Positions 4,408-12,847 of a DNA stretch of 64,000 bases are shown in pieces. A model generated the notes under the pieces. That model was not told where the DNA came from, ran no database searches, and worked only from the letters and a program-made list of their open reading frames with translations. A program made the translations under genes and the position numbers. Source of the stretch: Xanthobacter sp. NM-59 (GTDB lineage: Bacteria; Pseudomonadota; Alphaproteobacteria; Rhizobiales; Xanthobacteraceae); the NCBI RefSeq assembly GCF_021401125.1, contig NZ_JACBFQ010000001.1, positions 806,001 through 870,000 on the forward strand, read 5' to 3'. Position 1 is the first letter of the stretch. Each line of letters opens with the position of its first letter.

Positions 4408-5265
4408 ATGATCAAGATCGTCCATCTCAGCGACGCCCACATCGTCGCCGCGCCCCACCGCCTCTATGGCCTCGACCCGCGAGAGCGTCTCGCGCGCACG
4501 ATCGCCGACATCCAGGCGCGCCACGACGACGCCGACCTTTATGTGGCCACCGGCGATCTCGCCCATTGGGGTGAGGGGGATGCCTACGCCACCTTTGCGG
4601 CCGAGTGGGCGCGCGCCGGCCTGCCGGTGGTCTGCCTGATCGGCAACCACGATGACCGCGAGACCTTCAAACGCTCCTTTCCCGGTGCGATGGGCGATGA
4701 AAACGGCTTCGTTCAGGGGCATCGGCGGATCGGCGATCTCACCTGCCTCTTCCTCGACACCGTAACGCCGGGCAGTCACATCGGAAGCTTCTGCGAAACG
4801 CGTCAGGCGTGGCTCGCCGGCGCCCTTGAGGCCGCCGTCGGCGATGTCGCGGTCTTCATGCACCATCCGCCGCTTTCCGTCGGGGTGGCGCCCATGGACG
4901 CCATCGCGCTGGCCGATGCCGATGCGCTCGCCGCCGTCCTGGAGCCACACCGCGCGCGCATCCGTCATCTGTTTTTCGGGCACCTGCACCGGCCGATCTC
5001 GGGCTCATGGCGCGGCTGGTCGTTCTCCGGCACCCGCGGGCTCAACCACCAATTGGCGCTCGACGGGCATTTGCGGATCGACGGGCGGGCGGCCTCGGAC
5101 GACATCGTGGGCAGCCGTGAACCGCCGGGCTATGCGGTTATCCTCATCGACGATCAATCGCTCGTCGTCCATTTCGTTGACGTGACCGACGAGGATGCCC
5201 GGTTCTCACTCATTGCCGAAGAGACCGTGGGCCGCTCCTACGCGCTCGGCACGAGCGCCGAATGA
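4408..5265 (+). CDS. calcineurin-like phosphodiesterase
   Basis: Cytoplasmic dimetal phosphohydrolase of 285 aa. All metal-ligand blocks are present: D9-x-H11, GD at 49-50, GNHD 79-82, the HH pair at 152-153 and GHLH 191-194. This pattern is that of class III cyclic-nucleotide or glycerophosphodiester phosphodiesterases (CpdA/GpdQ group). There is no signal peptide. It is the fifth gene of the importer operon and overlaps the next gene by 4 bp, so a role in cleaving the imported phosphodiester is likely. A cAMP phosphodiesterase role cannot be excluded from sequence alone. Confidence 0.88.
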   Translation: MIKIVHLSDAHIVAAPHRLYGLDPRERLARTIADIQARHDDADLYVATGDLAHWGEGDAYATFAAEWARAGLPVVCLIGNHDDRETFKRSFPGAMGDENGFVQGHRRIGDLTCLFLDTVTPGSHIGSFCETRQAWLAGALEAAVGDVAVFMHHPPLSVGVAPMDAIALADADALAAVLEPHRARIRHLFFGHLHRPISGSWRGWSFSGTRGLNHQLALDGHLRIDGRAASDDIVGSREPPGYAVILIDDQSLVVHFVDVTDEDARFSLIAEETVGRSYALGTSAE

Positions 5266-6032
5266 ACCGGGCCCCCTCATTCTCCCAGCCCTCAACGCTT
5301 GAACAGGCCCGCGCGCGGATCGCCACTGCCCGCGTCGTGCTTTGCGATGTGGACGGCTGCCTGGTCGAGAGCGAGGCCCCCTGCCCGGGCGCGATCGATT
5401 TCGTCGCCCGGATGGGCGAGCGGCTGCGTCTTGTCACCAACAATTCGACGGACGTCGCTGTCACCCTCTCCGCGCGGCTGGCGGCGATCGGCCTGGACGT
5501 GCCGGCGGAACGCTGCTTCCTTGCCGGAGAGCTGGCGACCGAGCACGTGGCGCGGCACTATTCCGGCGCCCGCGTGATGATCCTCGCCACCGCCGCCATC
5601 CGCGCGGAGGCAGCGCGCCGCGGGCTTGCGGTAGCGAGCGTGCAGCCGGACGTGGTGCTGTTGTGCAACGATCCCGCCTTCGACGCCGGACATCTCCAGC
5701 GCGTCGTCGATGCCGCGCATCACGGCGTGCCGATCATCGTCGCGAACCCCGATCGCTGGCGCCCCGATCGCTCCGGCCGCCCCCTGATCGAGACCGGAGC
5801 CTTTCTGGCGGCCCTGCGCGCGGCAGTCCCGCATGCCGCGGTCACGGTCGTCGGGAAGCCTGAACCGACCATCTTCCACGCCGCCCTTGCCGGCGTCGAC
5901 CCGCGTGACGCCGTGATGATCGGCGACAACCGCGAAACCGATCTCGTGGGTGCCGAAGCGATCGGGACGATGGGGATCCAGATCGGACGCGGCGGCCACG
6001 CGGTCGCCGCCGATCTGGACGCTCTGCGATAA
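5262..6032 (+). CDS. HAD superfamily phosphatase, NagD-like (class IIA)
   Basis: 256-aa HAD hydrolase with motif I DVDG (29-32, nucleophile D29 and acid D31), motif II TNNS (59-62), motif III lysine in GKPEP (198-202) and motif IV GDNRETD (221-227). The class IIA cap between motifs II and III fits NagD/4-nitrophenylphosphatase/phosphoglycolate-type enzymes. It is coupled by a 4-bp ATGA overlap to the phosphodiesterase, suggesting that it removes the phosphate left after diester cleavage, for example from glycerol 3-phosphate. That substrate is inferred. Confidence 0.88.
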   Translation: MNRAPSFSQPSTLEQARARIATARVVLCDVDGCLVESEAPCPGAIDFVARMGERLRLVTNNSTDVAVTLSARLAAIGLDVPAERCFLAGELATEHVARHYSGARVMILATAAIRAEAARRGLAVASVQPDVVLLCNDPAFDAGHLQRVVDAAHHGVPIIVANPDRWRPDRSGRPLIETGAFLAALRAAVPHAAVTVVGKPEPTIFHAALAGVDPRDAVMIGDNRETDLVGAEAIGTMGIQIGRGGHAVAADLDALR

Positions 6033-6145: not shown

Positions 6146-7159
6146 TCATAAAGGGAGGGGCGACCTCTCCGGGATCGGCACCGGCGGTGCCGCGACCGGA
6201 AGCGCAGCCGCGCTCGCATCGGGCCAAACGGTGACCACGCTGCCGTCCGCCCGCACAAACAGGGCGACAAGGCCGAGGCGCCGGGCCAGCGCGGGGCCGT
6301 GCTCCGCGCCCGTCACCAGAAGGGCTGTGGCCCATGCGTCGGCGGCCATGCAGGTTTCGGCCAGCACGGTGACAGCGGCGAGGTCCGCGTCAAGCGGCAC
6401 CCCGCGGCGCGGGTCCATGGTGTGGGAGGCGGTCCGCTCCCCCACCCGCGCCCGATGACGATAGCCACCCGAGGTGGCCACGGCCGCGCCCGAGAGCTCC
6501 AGGATGCCGAGGATCTCGCGTGCGCCGGCATCGGGCTTCTCCTGGGCGACCGTCCAGGGGCGGCCATCGGGCTTGCGCCCCTCAGCGCGCATCTCGCCAT
6601 CAATGCCCACCAGCCAGGAGGAGAGGCCCGCCGCGCCCATCACCCGCGCCAGCTCGTCCACCCCGAAGCCCTTGGCGATACCCGAGAGGTCGAGCCGCAG
6701 CGGGCCGAGACGCCGGGCCCGGCCGCCAAGGGGATCGAGCTGGAGCGTCTTGGGCGCCGCAAAGGCGGGGCGGCCTTCGCACGCGGCGATCCGGAGCGGA
6801 TCGGGGGTGCGCGCGCCGCCGCCGAAGCCCCAAGCCCGCACCAGATCGCCCACGCCAATGTCGAACGCCCCCTCCGACAGGCGGCCAATCTCCAAGGCGG
6901 TGGCGAGCACCGTCATGAGCGCCTTGGGGACCGGCATCCACTGGCCAACGGGCGCGGCGTTGAGGCGTTCGAGGTCGGAATCGGGGCGCCAGGTGGACAT
7001 CTGCTGCTCCACGCGGTCCACCGCCGCCTGCAGGTCGCGCCCGAGCGCTCCGGCATCGAAGCCTTCCGCGGCCCAGAAGACGCAGGACCAGCGCGAGCCC
7101 ATGGCGGGACCGTTCAGGGCATGGCGGCGCAAGGGGATGGGAGCCGTTTCAGTAGACAT
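6146..7159 (-). CDS. apbE: FAD:protein FMN transferase (ApbE family)
   Basis: Transfers FMN from FAD to a Ser/Thr of a target protein, forming a phosphoester-linked flavin. The 337-aa product shows the family blocks GSRW near the N-terminus, DLSGIAKGFGVD, ATSGGYR, SHTMDPRRGVP and TCMAADAWATAL; the Asp and Thr residues of the last two regions bind Mg-FAD. The start is taken at ATG 7159, which overlaps the upstream reductase stop by 11 bp; longer readings enter only shadow sequence. Unlike many ApbE proteins it has no lipobox or obvious signal peptide, so its compartment is uncertain. It is the last gene of an operon holding a protein with a flavinylation-like motif, which is its probable target. 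Confidence 0.93.
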   Translation of the reverse strand: MSTETAPIPLRRHALNGPAMGSRWSCVFWAAEGFDAGALGRDLQAAVDRVEQQMSTWRPDSDLERLNAAPVGQWMPVPKALMTVLATALEIGRLSEGAFDIGVGDLVRAWGFGGGARTPDPLRIAACEGRPAFAAPKTLQLDPLGGRARRLGPLRLDLSGIAKGFGVDELARVMGAAGLSSWLVGIDGEMRAEGRKPDGRPWTVAQEKPDAGAREILGILELSGAAVATSGGYRHRARVGERTASHTMDPRRGVPLDADLAAVTVLAETCMAADAWATALLVTGAEHGPALARRLGLVALFVRADGSVVTVWPDASAAALPVAAPPVPIPERSPLPL

Positions 7160-9338
7160 CTTCCACATACCGTCCATGGGTCTTGAGGGTGGCGAGGTCG
7201 AGGCCGAGCGGATGCACGATGGGATCGAGCGCCCGGCGCACCGCTTCAGCCATGTCGCGCCCGCCGCAAACCAGGATCTGGGCACCCTGGCGGATCAGCT
7301 CCCGCAGGCGCGGCGCATCGGCGGCAATGCGGTCCTGCACATAGGCGCTCCCGGCCGGAGCGCGCGAGAAGGCGGTGGAAAGCGAGGTGAGGCGCTTTTC
7401 CGCCAGATGCCGGGCCAGCTCGTGCTCATAGAGGAAGTCGGAAGACGGGCTGCGCCCACCCCAATACAGGTGCACCGGCCGCCCCGGCGCATTGGCCCGC
7501 ACGAAGCCAGCAAGGGGCCCGATGCCCGCTCCGGCGCCGATGAGGATGAGCGGCATGCGCCCTTCGGCGGGGTGGAAGGTGGGGTTGGTGCGGATGAAGG
7601 CATCAACCTCGTCGCCCGCCTTGAGCCCATGGAGGAAGCTGGAGCACAGCCCCCCTTCGCGCAGCCGCACACAGATCTCCGCCATGCCGTCCCGGGTGGA
7701 GGACGCCAGCGAATAGAAGCGCGGCATGGCGCTGCCCGGCGGCACGATGGCCAGAAGATCCCCCGCTTCGAACTCCGGCAGGGGGGACGCGTGCCCCCTG
7801 CTCTGAGGCATGCGGAAGCGCAGGATGGCCACGGGAGCCCCGACCGCCGCCCCGTAATCCTCGCGCTCCACCAGCGTCAAGGCCTGGGTCTTCGGTGTCT
7901 CGGCGATGTGCGTGAGGGTCAGCTCGTGGCCGAGCGCCGCGCCGAGGTCCTGCCCCCATTGGGCGAACTCCTGGGCCGAACGCCGATCGATGCGCTTCAT
8001 GGGCATAAGCAGTGGCCAGCCCTTGGCGTGCAGCGCGCCCGCCACATCCTCCGCAAAGGCGCAGAAACGCGGGAAGCTGCGATCGCCGAAGCCGAGCACG
8101 GCGACGGGCACCTTGCCCTCAAGCCCCGAGAGACGGGAGAGGAAGGCGGCAGCGGACGCGGGCGCCGCGCCGTCGCCATGGGTGGCGGCAAGGATCAGCA
8201 TGCGCTCAGCCTTCAGGTGCTCGGGCCCGATTTCACTCATGGTGGCGGTGTGGACACGGTGGCCGGCGGCCGTGAGGGCCTTGTGGAGCGTTCCGGCGAA
8301 GCCCCAGGTGGAATTGGCTTCACTGCCCACCAGGATCACCGTGTCGGCCGCGCGCGCGGGAACATTGGCCACGATGCGCGGCCGGGCCGCGCGCCTGCGC
8401 ACCCACATAACGATGCCGGTGCCGCTCAGCACAGGAACTGCAAGGGCCGAAAGGCCGAGAAGCAGCCCCAGCAGCCAGGCCCCGCCACGCCCCGTATGGA
8501 GCATGCGGAAAATGCCATCGAGGCGTTCCAGCACGGAAGCGGGGGTGAAGGCGAGCTGGTCGCCCGTCGCCGGATCGATCACGGCCTCGCCCGCAGCGGT
8601 GCGCAGCACATAAGTGCCGGTGGCATCTCCCGCAGCGGGGAATGTCAGCTCGCGAAGCTCCGAAAGCTTGGTGCCTCTGAGCGCCGAAAGGCTGCCCACG
8701 GGGGCCGGAGCGCCGCCGCTGGCGGTGACCTCAGCCACGGGCGCCTGCGGCTGCGGAATGAGGCCAAACGTTCCCGCGGACATCCAAAGGCCCGTCAGGG
8801 AAGAAACGATGAGGCCCACAGTCGCGAGGCGGCCCAATTCGCCATGCCAGCGCTGGGCTGGTGTGCCCCGGATGGGCCGCAACAGCGCCCGCGCCCCACC
8901 AAGCCGGCGAGCGAGCAGGACAAGGCCCGACACGCTCAGCGCCAGCATGGCGAAGGCACCGACACCGGCCGCCGCCCGCCCCGCGTCGCCCATGAGGAAG
9001 GCGCGGTGCAGATTGGTGATGAAGCGCGTGGTTTCCGACACCTGATAGGGCCCGAGCCCCGCCCCGGTGGCCGGGTCCAGCCGCTCGACGCCGCGCGCGT
9101 CCGCGTCCTCGAAGGCCACGGTGAAGGTCCCGTCCGCCCGCATGCGGATGGTATCGACAGACTGATGGCGCGCCGCCACGGCCTCGGCGAGGGCGGCCAC
9201 GCTCATATTCCCGGGGATGGCGGGCGCCGCCATCCGGTCCATGGCCGGCTGGACGGAGAGCACCACGCCCGTGATGGCGATGAAGGACAGGCCGAGCGCT
9301 AGCACAACGCCCGGCAGCCCATGAAGACGGCGTAGCAT
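7149..9338 (-). CDS. PepSY membrane protein fused to CysJ-like flavodoxin/FNR reductase
   Basis: 729-aa fusion. The N-terminal third is a PepSY-associated membrane domain: four hydrophobic segments (about 9-30, 122-144, 170-190, 286-312) each accompanied by a histidine (H6, H111, H165, H281), a pattern that could bind haem. Residues about 334-470 form a flavodoxin domain. Residues 485-729 form an FAD/NADPH reductase with RFYSLASS (540-547), the dinucleotide loop GAGAGIGPLAGF (601-612), CGGRDMA (691-697) and an aromatic C-terminus (YVEDVY) as in sulfite reductase flavoprotein. It probably passes electrons from cytosolic NAD(P)H through FAD/FMN across the membrane. Neighbours DUF2271 and ApbE suggest that the acceptor is a flavinylated periplasmic protein. 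Confidence 0.9.
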   Translation of the reverse strand: MLRRLHGLPGVVLALGLSFIAITGVVLSVQPAMDRMAAPAIPGNMSVAALAEAVAARHQSVDTIRMRADGTFTVAFEDADARGVERLDPATGAGLGPYQVSETTRFITNLHRAFLMGDAGRAAAGVGAFAMLALSVSGLVLLARRLGGARALLRPIRGTPAQRWHGELGRLATVGLIVSSLTGLWMSAGTFGLIPQPQAPVAEVTASGGAPAPVGSLSALRGTKLSELRELTFPAAGDATGTYVLRTAAGEAVIDPATGDQLAFTPASVLERLDGIFRMLHTGRGGAWLLGLLLGLSALAVPVLSGTGIVMWVRRRAARPRIVANVPARAADTVILVGSEANSTWGFAGTLHKALTAAGHRVHTATMSEIGPEHLKAERMLILAATHGDGAAPASAAAFLSRLSGLEGKVPVAVLGFGDRSFPRFCAFAEDVAGALHAKGWPLLMPMKRIDRRSAQEFAQWGQDLGAALGHELTLTHIAETPKTQALTLVEREDYGAAVGAPVAILRFRMPQSRGHASPLPEFEAGDLLAIVPPGSAMPRFYSLASSTRDGMAEICVRLREGGLCSSFLHGLKAGDEVDAFIRTNPTFHPAEGRMPLILIGAGAGIGPLAGFVRANAPGRPVHLYWGGRSPSSDFLYEHELARHLAEKRLTSLSTAFSRAPAGSAYVQDRIAADAPRLRELIRQGAQILVCGGRDMAEAVRRALDPIVHPLGLDLATLKTHGRYVEDVY

Positions 9339-9357
9339 TGAAAGTCTTCCCAGAAGA

Positions 9358-9828
9358 TCAGAAAGTGACGCTGAAGGAATTCACATAGCCCTTGCCGGCA
9401 ACAGGCTTGCCGGACGCGGCGGCCTCAAGGGGCACCACCACCTCGGAAGGATTGTCCATGCCGTCTTCCACGGCGGTGTCCACATGCACCTTGAAGCCCG
9501 CGTCGATCATGGCATCCGCGAGGTCGAGGCTGATCTTCAGCGTTTTCCCGGAGCCGATGCTGGCGCCGGTGATGCCGTCGATCTCCGTGGCCCGCCCGCC
9601 GGAGGCGCGCTGCCAGTCGGAGAGATGGCGATAGTATTTCGCCTTGTCGCCCGCCATCCAGAGCGTGCCCTTATAGGCCCCGGCAGCATCGGTAACGTAG
9701 AGCACCACATAGGCACCGTTGCCGCCATAATTCTTCAGCGTGGTCTCGAACGTGACCTGCCTGGCCTCGGCGAGCACCGGCGTCACGAGCGCGGCGGTGG
9801 CCGCCAGCGCGGGAAGAGCGAATTTCAT
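9358..9828 (-). CDS. DUF2271 exported protein with flavinylation-like motif
   Basis: 156-aa precursor starting at ATG 9828, with AAGGAA about 9 nt upstream. A Sec signal peptide (MKFALPALAATAALVTPVLA, cut after residue 20) exports it. The mature part is a beta-rich DUF2271 domain. Residues 84-90 read DGITGAS, closely matching the D-x-x-(S/T)-G-A-(S/T) pattern that ApbE modifies in NqrC, RnfG and FMN_bind proteins, here with serine in the acceptor position. It lies 19 bp upstream of the PepSY reductase and two genes before apbE. Most likely it is the periplasmic flavin carrier of this operon; that is inference. Confidence 0.85.
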   Translation of the reverse strand: MKFALPALAATAALVTPVLAEARQVTFETTLKNYGGNGAYVVLYVTDAAGAYKGTLWMAGDKAKYYRHLSDWQRASGGRATEIDGITGASIGSGKTLKISLDLADAMIDAGFKVHVDTAVEDGMDNPSEVVVPLEAAASGKPVAGKGYVNSFSVTF

Positions 9829-9866
9829 CGGGAATTTCCTTGAAGATGGGACGAACAGCCGAAGGC

Positions 9867-10220
9867 TCACTGCACCTCGACCTTGGGCCGGGCCTTGCCC
9901 TGGAACAGGCCATTGTCGGGCACCGGCGCGTTCGGATCGCTCGGGCCGCTCTGCGGCAGGGCGCTGCGACCGCTGTGGCCGTCGTCATCGTCATCGTCGT
10001 CGTCATCGTCGTGATGGCGGCGCTTGGACGAGGCATCGTCGCGATGCTTGCGGTGGTCGCTTTCAGCGAGGCGCTGCCAATGGCTGCCATCGCGCTCCCC
10101 GTGCTCGAAACGGCTCTCGGAATGGCGGGCGAAATGGTCAGCCCCAGCGGCGGCGAGGGCCACGCCCACGCCGGCGGTGGACAAAAGGATGGCTGCGCCG
10201 ATCAGCGTGCGCGTCTTCAT
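9867..10220 (-). CDS. small exported His/Asp-rich protein
   Basis: 117-aa product from ATG 10220, with GGGAG upstream. Residues 1-25 look like a signal peptide (cut near ALAAA). The mature part is very hydrophilic, rich in His and Arg, and has HH followed by ten consecutive aspartates (71-80) in the middle. No named domain is recognised. The low-complexity segment suggests binding of a divalent metal such as iron or calcium. It is the first gene of the DUF2271-PepSY-ApbE operon, 38 bp before DUF2271, so it probably acts in the same periplasmic redox or metal process. Confidence 0.7.
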   Translation of the reverse strand: MKTRTLIGAAILLSTAGVGVALAAAGADHFARHSESRFEHGERDGSHWQRLAESDHRKHRDDASSKRRHHDDDDDDDDDDGHSGRSALPQSGPSDPNAPVPDNGLFQGKARPKVEVQ

Positions 10221-10253
10221 TGGGGGGCTCCCGGTTCGTTTTGACCGGGCCAC

Positions 10254-11110
10254 GTTCCCGCACCCACCTGACGGCGACCTGAACCCAAGGCGGATCGGCG
10301 TTCAGCTTGGTGTCAGGTTCGCGCCAGCCCGCGTGAATGGCACCCACCGGCACCACTGCGACGGTCCCGAGGGTCGCTCCCGCATCCACCTCCTGGATTC
10401 GCGAGGCGAACAGCCCCAAGCGGCTGTGAGGCACTAACTGGGGTGAGCATTGTCCAGCTGAGGACATCCAGGTGGACCCTCGTTCTGGCAAATTCACGAC
10501 GACCAGAACACGAAGCGCCTGTTTCGACGTCCGATGACCCGGCGCCTTAGCGGCAATCTGGCAAGTTAGCGAGTCGTACAGCCGCTGATCCAGGTCGGGT
10601 ACGCACCCCCAAACCCCGGGCCACCCCAGGGAGCGCCCCGCCGAGACTGGGCTCTTTTTTATTTTCAAAGAGATATGGCGGGCAGCGCCCGACGAAGATG
10701 AGCACTACGAGATCGTGACAAGCATCTGACAACTATGCGGATACTCCATGTTATGCGGCTATCGGCGGGTTTCGGCGGCATTTGGGTGGCTAACGGCGGC
10801 CATTTCGGACGTTTGGCGGGGTTGCACCCTCATTTCCGTCGTTCACGAGGCTATCTTCGAATATCCGCTTCAGGCTCGAAACGCACCTCAGCTTGGCAAC
10901 ACGGCTACCGATTTCGGCAAGAGTTTCCCGCTCAAACCCCACAAAGAACGGGCCTGTTGGTCAGGTTCTGTGGCGGCTTCACGAACCAAATGCTTCGAGG
11001 CAGGTCGAGGACGTGACATACAGCGACCGCATCGATGCCCTGGCGCGAGCTTTCGGGCATCGATGGGCGGCGCAATATTGTCGCGCCACGAATTGCTCCG
11101 GATAGATGTA
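10254..11110. other. gene-poor degenerate stretch
   Basis: No reading frame here resembles a known protein, and codon bias is not that of the surrounding genes. Frames of 100 or more codons exist on both strands but give arginine- and proline-rich or low-complexity translations typical of non-coding GC-rich DNA. With the SDR fragment to its right it looks like decayed or rearranged DNA. Confidence 0.5.
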
Positions 11111-11114
11111 TTGG

Positions 11115-11600
11115 TGATCTTCTCGCTTCTGCGCCAAAGCTCTTCAGCGAAGTCCGGGTCGATCGCAAAGGCTTCGACACCGGTGCCGCGATTGGTACGA
11201 TCTTCGGTCAGATCGCGGGTACCGCCCTCCGGCAGTACGGGGGTGATATCGGAATCGGCGCAGAATACACCGCCCTTGCCGTCAAGCTGCGGATTGACCG
11301 CGCACCAGACGTGGGTGGCGGCGCCCTGCGGCACCGATTTCAGGTCACGGGCCAGATCGATGACGGGCCGGCCGTTCTCGTCGACGAACCCGGTGTTCTG
11401 CAGCATCTCCACCCCGACATGCGTGCCGAGATTGGTCCCCGCGATCCCGCCGGGATGGAGCGCGAACGCGCGAATGACCACCAGATGCAACCCCAATCCA
11501 TCTCGCGATTGCACGACCGAGATGGACGCGAAGCTGAATGTTCGCAGTCAGGCAACGAGCCAAGGTCCGCGCCTGGCGGAATGCTTCCGGTTTGGCGCAA
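11115..11600 (-). pseudogene. short-chain dehydrogenase fragment (C-terminal part)
   Basis: On the minus strand, about 11500 down to 11120 reads as the C-terminal third of a retinol-dehydrogenase-like SDR: a conserved FALHPGGI block, then PQGAATHVWCAVNPQL and GGVFCADSDI. A TANIQL segment, resembling the region just after the catalytic YxxxK, lies in a neighbouring frame near 11540, which implies a frameshift. The Rossmann N-terminus and the catalytic Tyr/Lys are missing. It lies between two unrelated operons in decayed DNA, so it is a remnant and not expected to be active. Confidence 0.65.
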
Positions 11601-11710
11601 CAGCAGATCCCGTCGCGCGTGGACGGTTGGGGCGAAAGCAGCCGGGGCGACCAGCGGAGCCCGGAGTGGGCGCACATCTGTAGGGGCCGCCAACAGGCAA
11701 GAGGGCGGGT

Positions 11711-12847
11711 CTATCTCGCGCTCGCCAGGGAGCGACGGAACAGCAGCATGCTTCCGGTGAGAAATGCGACCCCCATCACCAGCACGATCGCAAACTCCCG
11801 CCAGACGATCGAAAAATCCGCGCCGCGATAGACGATCGCCTGGGTGAAGCCGATGTAGTGACGCGACGGTAAGAGCCATGTCACATATTGAATCCACCTC
11901 GGCTGGCTCTCGATCGGGGTCATGCCTCCCGACAGCATCATCATCGGCATGACGGTCATCATCATCATCAATGCGAACTGCGCCATGGTGCGGGCGATGG
12001 TCCCGAGGAAAATGCCGATCGAAGCGGCGGCGAAAACGTAGATCACGGTGCCGAGGAGAAAAAGGAGGCGCGAGCCGGCGATGGGAACATCGAGCGCGCC
12101 TTCAACCACGAACAGCAGCGAGCACACGAACGCGACGATGATGACGAGACCGTTGGCCCAGACTTTCGCCAGCGCGATCTCGAACGCCGTGAGCGGCATC
12201 ACCAGGAGATGCTCGATGGTGCCGTGCTCGCGCTCGCGCAGCAGCGCCGCGCCGGTCAGGATGATGATGAGCATCGACAGATGATCCGCCAAGCTCACGA
12301 TGGCGCGGAACCAGGATTGAGTTCCATTCGGGTTGAAGGCCCGGCGGATGGCGAGATTTGAATCGAGGCCGGGCTCGTGCTCGAATTCCTGGCGGTATCT
12401 TTTCACCTCGTTGGCGACCATGTTCTGGATATAGCTCGACCCGATGGTCGCCTGCTCGACGGCGGTGGCGTCGATGCTCACCTGCACCTCGGCATTCCTG
12501 CCCCTCCGGACATCCGCCTCGAAGTGGGGCGGGATGGTCACGATGAAGGTGTAGCGCCCTTCATCCATGGCTCGATCGATATCCGCGGCGCCGATGGTCC
12601 TGGCCGCCTGGAAATAGGGAGGATAAAACAGCCCGGCGATGGAGCGGGACAGCCGGGAGTGATCTTCGTCCACGATGGCGATGGCGGCATTGTTGACCGT
12701 CTCCCCGGCGCCGGTCGCCTCGGTATAGATGCCGACGCCGAAGGCCCAGGCGATGAAGATGAGCATCATGGGGTCCTTGGCGAGCGCCCAGAGCTCCTTG
12801 GTGCCAAGCCAGAAGATGTTGGACAGGCTGCCCAGCAAGCCTCCCAT
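11711..12847 (-). CDS. yhhJ: ABC-2 type export permease, YhhJ-like
   Basis: 378-aa inner-membrane protein. It has one N-terminal membrane helix (about 26-45), a large periplasmic domain with AIVDEDHSRLSRSI, and five or six C-terminal helices, as expected for the ABC-2 family. It follows the rbbA-like gene by 2 bp. The gene order HlyD-like, dual-ATPase and ABC-2 permease equals E. coli yhiI-rbbA-yhhJ, so the three should form one export complex of unknown substrate. Confidence 0.88.
   Translation of the reverse strand: MGGLLGSLSNIFWLGTKELWALAKDPMMLIFIAWAFGVGIYTEATGAGETVNNAAIAIVDEDHSRLSRSIAGLFYPPYFQAARTIGAADIDRAMDEGRYTFIVTIPPHFEADVRRGRNAEVQVSIDATAVEQATIGSSYIQNMVANEVKRYRQEFEHEPGLDSNLAIRRAFNPNGTQSWFRAIVSLADHLSMLIIILTGAALLREREHGTIEHLLVMPLTAFEIALAKVWANGLVIIVAFVCSLLFVVEGALDVPIAGSRLLFLLGTVIYVFAAASIGIFLGTIARTMAQFALMMMMTVMPMMMLSGGMTPIESQPRWIQYVTWLLPSRHYIGFTQAIVYRGADFSIVWREFAIVLVMGVAFLTGSMLLFRRSLASAR

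Follow-up and report, generated by a model that had tools for sequence, protein, structure and literature searches.

The minus-strand operon at positions 10220-6146 of a 64,000-nucleotide stretch from the soil bacterium Xanthobacter sp. NM-59 (contig NZ_JACBFQ010000001.1, positions 806,001 to 870,000; hereafter the window) combines a flavin reductase, a flavin transferase and two exported proteins. It is very likely, judging from its predicted proteins, that the operon moves electrons from the cytosol across the inner membrane to an exported flavin protein. About its role we are less certain, and we hold it about evenly probable that it serves as effector arm to a PmrA/QseB/BqsR-like two-component system and reduces a periplasmic acceptor, most likely a metal, e.g. 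Fe(III), for envelope metal homeostasis or stress and not for Fur-type uptake. Papers are cited by PMC number from excerpts. Open reading frames (ORFs), called by simple ORF rules without a gene finder, and profile hits, obtained by single-sequence phmmer, agree with the initial annotation on the four genes, in which FAD and FMN stand for flavin adenine dinucleotide and flavin mononucleotide and pLDDT for the predicted local distance difference test:

9867..10220, minus strand: His/Asp-rich exported peptide, 117 residues (ORF; N-terminal hydropathy 2.13; family alignment)
9358..9828, minus strand: DUF2271, predicted exported flavoprotein (PF10029, 1.2e-36; signal-like N-terminus, 2.01)
7149..9338, minus strand: PepSY_TM-flavodoxin-FAD/NAD(P) fusion, 729 residues (Pfam; model pLDDT 89.8)
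6146..7159, minus strand: ApbE, FAD:protein FMN transferase (PF02424, 1.3e-73; without visible signal peptide)

The genes are tightly packed, with 38 bp between peptide and DUF2271, 19 bp between DUF2271 and fusion, and an 11-bp overlap of fusion and ApbE. Their order is kept, and the peptide is present, in every one of the 20 loci, spread over 16 genomes, that near relatives of the same subtype have with upstream DNA; a 21st subtype locus, L038, was left out of the order count because a contig end cuts its upstream DNA. Since the order recurs in all 20 loci, chance or an artefact as source of the gene set is ruled out. The combination of the peptide with a CysJ-type fusion, which the initial annotation had called less usual, is therefore the rule in this subtype, and the supposed rarity of the fusion is also countered by the 1077 PepSY-like genes with a fused NAD-binding domain in a published survey (Meheust et al., 2021, PMC8238504). 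A broader survey of the subtype comprised the best 80 of 413 relatives, 75 of them with more than 4 kb of upstream DNA.

The central protein of the operon is the fusion, which consists of three parts:

8394..9332, minus strand: PepSY_TM membrane domain, FoxB-like, with four transmembrane (TM) helices and invariant H6, H111, H165 and H281 (PF03929, 5.3e-37; alignment; model)
7977..8336, minus strand: flavodoxin (FMN) domain (PF00258, 5.1e-12)
7236..7838, minus strand: FAD/NAD(P)-binding reductase part (PF00175, 8.6e-11; PF00970, 5.4e-4, slightly below cut-off)

In its flavodoxin plus FAD/NADPH module the reductase half shows kinship with cytochrome P450 reductase (CPR), CysJ and nitric oxide synthase, but unlike in CysJ and CPR the diflavin module is fused to a predicted membrane cytochrome. 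The fusion misses the NCBIfam cysJ equivalog cut-off (148 of 668 bits), which rules it out as CysJ, the subunit of assimilatory sulfite reductase. The profile of the membrane part has FoxB, the siderophore reductase of Pseudomonas (7ABW), as its sole significant match (2.2e-9; next match E = 1). Since diflavin proteins filled the 50 matches listed for the full-length model, with FoxB not among them, the membrane part was modelled alone (pLDDT 92.9; predicted TM-score, pTM, 0.85), and Foldseek then returned only the FoxB chains 7abw_B and 7abw_A below 0.001 (5.6e-9 and 7.9e-9, TM-score ~0.5). Thus, domains, reductase kinship and fold bear out an NAD(P)H/FAD/FMN reductase joined to a four-helix PepSY membrane part, as originally proposed. 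The further claim of one histidine per helix holds in so far as none of the four histidines varies across the 61 fusions aligned, but it is only approximate, as H6 and H165 start TM1 and TM3 in the models, whereas H111 and H281 lie in short helices preceding TM2 and TM4. FoxB shares the membrane fold, and three of the four histidines, H6, H111 and H281, align directly with FoxB histidines in the profile alignment; through an internal repeat, FoxB LHR 197-199 pairs with the H6 region, so that it may supply the partner of H165. Unlike the operon fusion, FoxB comes without a fused diflavin reductase or flavinylated partner in the alignment, and identity is 18-19%.

From these parts we infer haem and FMN occupancy and an outward direction of electron flow, and a chain NAD(P)H-FAD-FMN-haem-haem-FMN(DUF2271) appears well founded as a prediction. 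Electrons of cytosolic NAD(P)H would pass over FAD to the FMN of the CPR/CysJ-like diflavin module, from there to two b-haems with H6/H165 and H111/H281 of the FoxB-like membrane domain as ligands, and from the haems to an FMN covalently bound to the exported DUF2271, which may then reduce an acceptor in the periplasm. This acceptor would most likely be a metal, for instance Fe(III). The site at which this last FMN would be attached is marked in DUF2271:

9559..9570, minus strand: T87-G-A-S90, ApbE target motif (invariant in the DUF2271 alignment, 16 of 16)

The motif [ST]GA[ST] occurs in the DUF2271 proteins of 80/80 subtype relatives and, together with the signal-like N-terminus, supports the initial description of a secreted DUF2271 with an ApbE target; flavinylation at such a motif has been demonstrated for one DUF2271 (PMC8238504). 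ApbE itself, correctly recognized before, is encoded in 71 of the 75 subtype loci with upstream DNA (61 of 64 without near-duplicates). The location of the two proteins is less easily reconciled. On a 12-residue hydropathy scale, on which the window peptide and DUF2271 score as listed above, the N-terminus of DUF2271 reaches at least 1.67 in 80/80 relatives, while the window ApbE has no signal peptide by hydropathy (first 45 residues at most 0.75) and the ApbE N-termini ahead of the ApbE domain have a maximum of 1.15 (69 scorable of 75), all these values being hydropathy only and not the output of a signal-peptide predictor. There is little room for a missed ApbE start, because the gene start overlaps the 3' end of the fusion. 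Many ApbE proteins of other DUF2271 types also come without an obvious signal, and a few score up to 1.92; those of the DUF4198 type (L031-L037 and several of L076-L134; L numbers designate loci) share a short N-terminal R-V-[LA]-[IV]-P stretch, seen by eye. Either FMN would be joined to DUF2271 before export, or ApbE may leave the cell interior by another route, and this raises the testable question of where DUF2271 is flavinylated if ApbE remains inside.

The second exported protein, the peptide, matches nothing in Pfam or NCBIfam, and two of its segments stand out:

9981..10010, minus strand: Asp10 tract, residues 71-80 (sequence; length differs among relatives)
9870..9947, minus strand: conserved C-terminal tail GPSDPNAPVPDNGLFQGKARPKVEVQ (no variation at P, N-G, F and P-K..V in two alignments)

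In an alignment of 16 peptides the tail P-x-N-G-[LF]-F ... P-K-x-x-V is conserved and the acidic run variable. Since the longest D/E run among relatives spans 2-18 residues while the tail is kept, it is unlikely that Asp10 is the functional core. The homologues in L056 and L074 carry a PepSY_2 domain (PF13670, 2.3e-25 and 1.2e-27, respectively), in L056 between signal and acidic run, and many further homologues match by phmmer. As some relatives carry PepSY_2 ahead of the same tail, the window peptide belongs by its sequence to a family of small exported proteins, in which it represents a form without PepSY_2. D/E runs are longer in members without PepSY_2 (medians 9, n=45, vs 5, n=31), although the species are related and the p-value is hence not independent. 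A small exported protein is encoded in 73 of 75 subtype loci (62 of 64 without near-duplicates), two loci having none adjoining; how many proteins are counted as tailed varies with the pattern used (61/75 or 64/80). A tail profile run on 385 genomes of the class found 2, the own genome included, but the neighbourhoods of relatives contain more tailed proteins, so that this search under-detects and was not used as a census. The peptide is missing from two paralogous DUF2271 sets (L057:5694-11745 and L058:5493-10911), which consist of DUF2271 and a PepSY_TM-flavodoxin-ApbE fusion without FAD/NAD part and sit directly downstream of a gene for a molybdoenzyme-like protein of the twin-arginine translocation type, with a MobB-like ORF between in L057. 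This molybdoenzyme-like protein is presumably BisC/TorZ-like. A defence system was considered as well and rejected, as PADLOC gave no defence-system match for peptide and DUF2271. In the operon, the small acidic protein may bind metal and/or adapt a sensor or the reductase via its invariant tail.

A sensor is indeed encoded next to most of these operons. A response regulator and a kinase adjoin the operon in 68 of the 75 subtype loci (57 of 64 without near-duplicates). In the own genome the pair is found on contig C1 (L073:8100-12796), together with a PepSY_2-type protein, a tail-less peptide-like gene, a ferric-reductase-like gene and the same 49-bp operator as in the window, and its kinase shows 75% identity. 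For the pair in L046, the regulator is nearest PmrA (206.5 of 330 bits; QseB 185.6 of 345) and the kinase nearest QseC (148.7 of 475 bits), all three scores falling far short of the NCBIfam equivalog cut-offs. Among 80 anchored kinases, from a total of 86, an ExxE motif directly follows TM1 in 66, a frequency that stands without a control set of unrelated kinases. BqsS senses Fe2+ through ExxE, and the motif marks iron-sensing kinases (PMC12666569). The shared operator is as follows:

10268..10316, no strand: palindromic putative operator CTGAC-N6-CTGAA-N17-TTCAG-N6-GTCAG, 49 bp (lies 48-96 bp before the peptide gene begins)

Taken alone, single boxes are weak evidence, since the window holds 5 matches at no more than one mismatch vs 2.7 expected. 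The exact double box, however, occurs just twice in the own genome, once here and once behind the C1 kinase, and the relaxed double box gives 91 matches in 964,161 bases vs 0 in the reversed sequence. Moreover, a blind strict DNA search across the order (297 genomes) yielded 21 sites, distributed over 19 genomes, and none with the reversed pattern; 19 of 19 loci examined from these sites contain genes of the system, with DUF2271 within 1.5 kb in 14. Among the subtype loci with upstream DNA, 61 of 75 have the relaxed and 36 the strict operator (51 and 29 of 64 without near-duplicates). DNA similarity between window and relatives stops near 10,323, beside the operator. The predicted operator ties the operon, as we infer, to the response regulator of the two-component system, which would control it through this site. 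Two-component system, operator, kinship of the peptide with PepSY_2 proteins and the conflict between a signal-less ApbE and its exported target were all absent from the initial annotation.

This arrangement resembles DbfQRS and BqsRS (PMC12714742, PMC12666569), PmrA/QseB-type two-component systems that are accompanied by small exported proteins of the PepSY kind. One of these, DbfQ, binds the sensor domain of the kinase DbfS, and the DbfQ-like PA2658/PA2659 adjoin the Fe(II)-sensing BqsRS (PMC12714742). Here, a small PepSY protein beside a two-component system is found in relatives and on contig C1 and not adjacent in the window. Unlike in these systems, the predicted target is a flavin electron-transfer operon, CTGAC-N6-CTGAA lies within a 49-bp palindrome, and the window peptide is without PepSY. 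The BqsR site likewise has two pentamers 6 bp apart, TTAAG-N6-TTAAG (PMC4682146).

Relatives of the fusion are also found on plasmids, with 175 plasmid records by tblastn, of which 92 cover at least 80% of the fusion and 90 are typed conjugative; gene content was inspected in four records. A Sulfitobacter plasmid bears a compact island of kinase, regulator, two PepSY proteins, a ferredoxin reductase family protein, DUF2271, fusion, ApbE, P-type ATPase and VIT, and plasmid pXAUT01 of X. autotrophicus Py2 has one operon copy (Xaut_4963-4966) with the peptide annotated as hypothetical. A second cluster on pXAUT01 (L263:1163-6955) encodes rubrerythrin, a hypothetical protein, cytochrome b561, a two-component system and a heavy-metal P-type ATPase.

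Which acceptor the chain serves is best judged from the neighbours. A P-type ATPase is encoded in 17 of 80 subtype loci, in 14 of these with an ATPCP motif, and 11 of the 14 lie directly downstream of ApbE; VIT1 is present in 17 of 75 loci and a ferric-reductase-like protein in 11 of 75. The TPC motif is linked to P1B-5 ATPases. One of these, Nia, is reported to move Ni2+ and Fe2+ (PMC4932525). In the seven loci with DUF2271 clusters of the DUF4198 type, DUF4198 and a short PepSY protein are always present, the TonB receptor is encoded in five and both ExbB and ExbD in four, whereas queries with all five matched 0 of 80 subtype loci. Iron acquisition, in which periplasmic ferric iron or ferri-siderophores would be reduced to feed uptake, a role put forward for FoxB and for clusters of the DUF4198 type, is thus an unlikely role here, despite the FoxB-like fold of the membrane part and despite Caulobacter DUF2271/PepSY/ApbE clusters that are Fur-repressed and matter under ethylenediaminetetraacetic acid (PMC3751524, PMC12004947). 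Instead of such uptake genes a two-component system with its predicted operator is present, and a crude scan upstream of the operon gave no Fur-, Irr- or RirA-like box (9, 7 and 5 mismatches, respectively) and 2 mismatches to a loose 8-base Fur pattern. Because relatives adjoin P-type ATPase and VIT1 and no TonB receptor was matched, metal homeostasis is favoured over Fur-type uptake. The acceptor could also be an enzyme. That the operon donates electrons to a periplasmic repair or respiratory enzyme, e.g. for sulfoxide or peroxide reduction, with metals secondary, is suggested by L057 and L058, where a 42% identical DUF2271 follows the molybdoenzyme-like gene, by cytochrome b561 in 15 of 80 subtype loci and by rubrerythrin near the second two-component set on pXAUT01; yet no such oxidoreductase recurs at the subtype loci, where the gene clusters that recur in four or more loci (6-kb flanks) were limited to P-type ATPase, b561 and one generic ABC ATPase, and we regard this role as improbable. 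VIT1 and P1B ATPases are not limited to iron. The metal could accordingly be copper, a lanthanide or another ion, as CrpH (PepSY_TM) serves copper enzymes (PMC13038864) and LanP, which has two PepSY domains, binds lanthanides (PMC11845868), but VIT1, the ferric-reductase-like neighbours and the ExxE of iron-sensing kinases lean to iron, so that a metal other than iron seems rather doubtful.

Several observations weigh against metal reduction under two-component control. VIT1, P-type ATPase and ferric-reductase-like genes occur in minorities of loci only, the cited PepSY proteins for copper and lanthanides widen the choice of metals, and the sets beside the molybdoenzyme-like gene indicate that the acceptor could be something other than a metal. 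A signal-less ApbE fits poorly with an exported DUF2271. No two-component system is adjacent in the window, its pair being on contig C1, or in 7 of 75 subtype loci; the relaxed operator is absent at 14 of 75, and it agrees with BqsR sites in the 6-bp spacing alone, the pentamers themselves not being matched. The own-genome kinase reads REIDD where others have ExxE, and DbfRS answered outer-membrane damage and not iron (PMC12714742). Finally, as the best 80 of 413 relatives were surveyed, the counts describe this subtype only. Because of REIDD, the uncontrolled ExxE frequency and DbfRS, iron as the metal would have only a modest probability and metal homeostasis as role a moderate one. A more specific and clearly tentative version, which we think will probably not hold in full, regards the genes as a self-contained island for metal redox at the envelope that is carried in part by plasmids. 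Its small PepSY_2/acidic-tail protein would couple the periplasmic metal or flavin redox state to its own kinase and DUF2271 would be flavinylated in the cytosol by the signal-less ApbE before export.

Outside the operon, window positions 10324-11710, up to an ABC-2 permease (11711-12847, minus strand), hold ORFs without Pfam match; five ORFs tested, 10138-10668, 10888-11514, 11035-11760, 11340-11897 and the peptide, gave none. Downstream, at 4408-6032 on the plus strand, a calcineurin-like phosphoesterase and a HAD hydrolase lie beside a solute-binding protein and a permease.

The core chain of the operon is already known. PepSY-like flavinylation clusters with ApbE, DUF2271 with [ST]GA[ST] and PepSY_TM have been published, in agreement with the gene association stated in the initial annotation, and their part in exporting electrons and a connection with iron reduction have been proposed as well; two-component system, operator and a small acidic PepSY_2-type protein are not mentioned in the excerpts of that survey (PMC8238504). 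Caulobacter CC_3059-3063 likewise has DUF2271 and ApbE together with a protein of the PepSY family and a flavoprotein that carries the annotation sulfite reductase, but is Fur-regulated, contains DUF4198 and belongs to a separate subtype (PMC3751524). A search of open-licence literature found no description of the regulated island, which together with the peptide family is new. A conserved small protein family so far annotated as hypothetical (Xaut_4963) is now defined, and the operator offers a ready test of regulation as well as a marker for locating the system in genomes. PepSY-assisted two-component sensing, as in DbfQRS and BqsRS, and flavinylated electron export, which the excerpts of the literature cited here treat separately, are thereby joined, and sensor pair, shared DNA switch and small acidic exported protein point to metal handling at the cell envelope.

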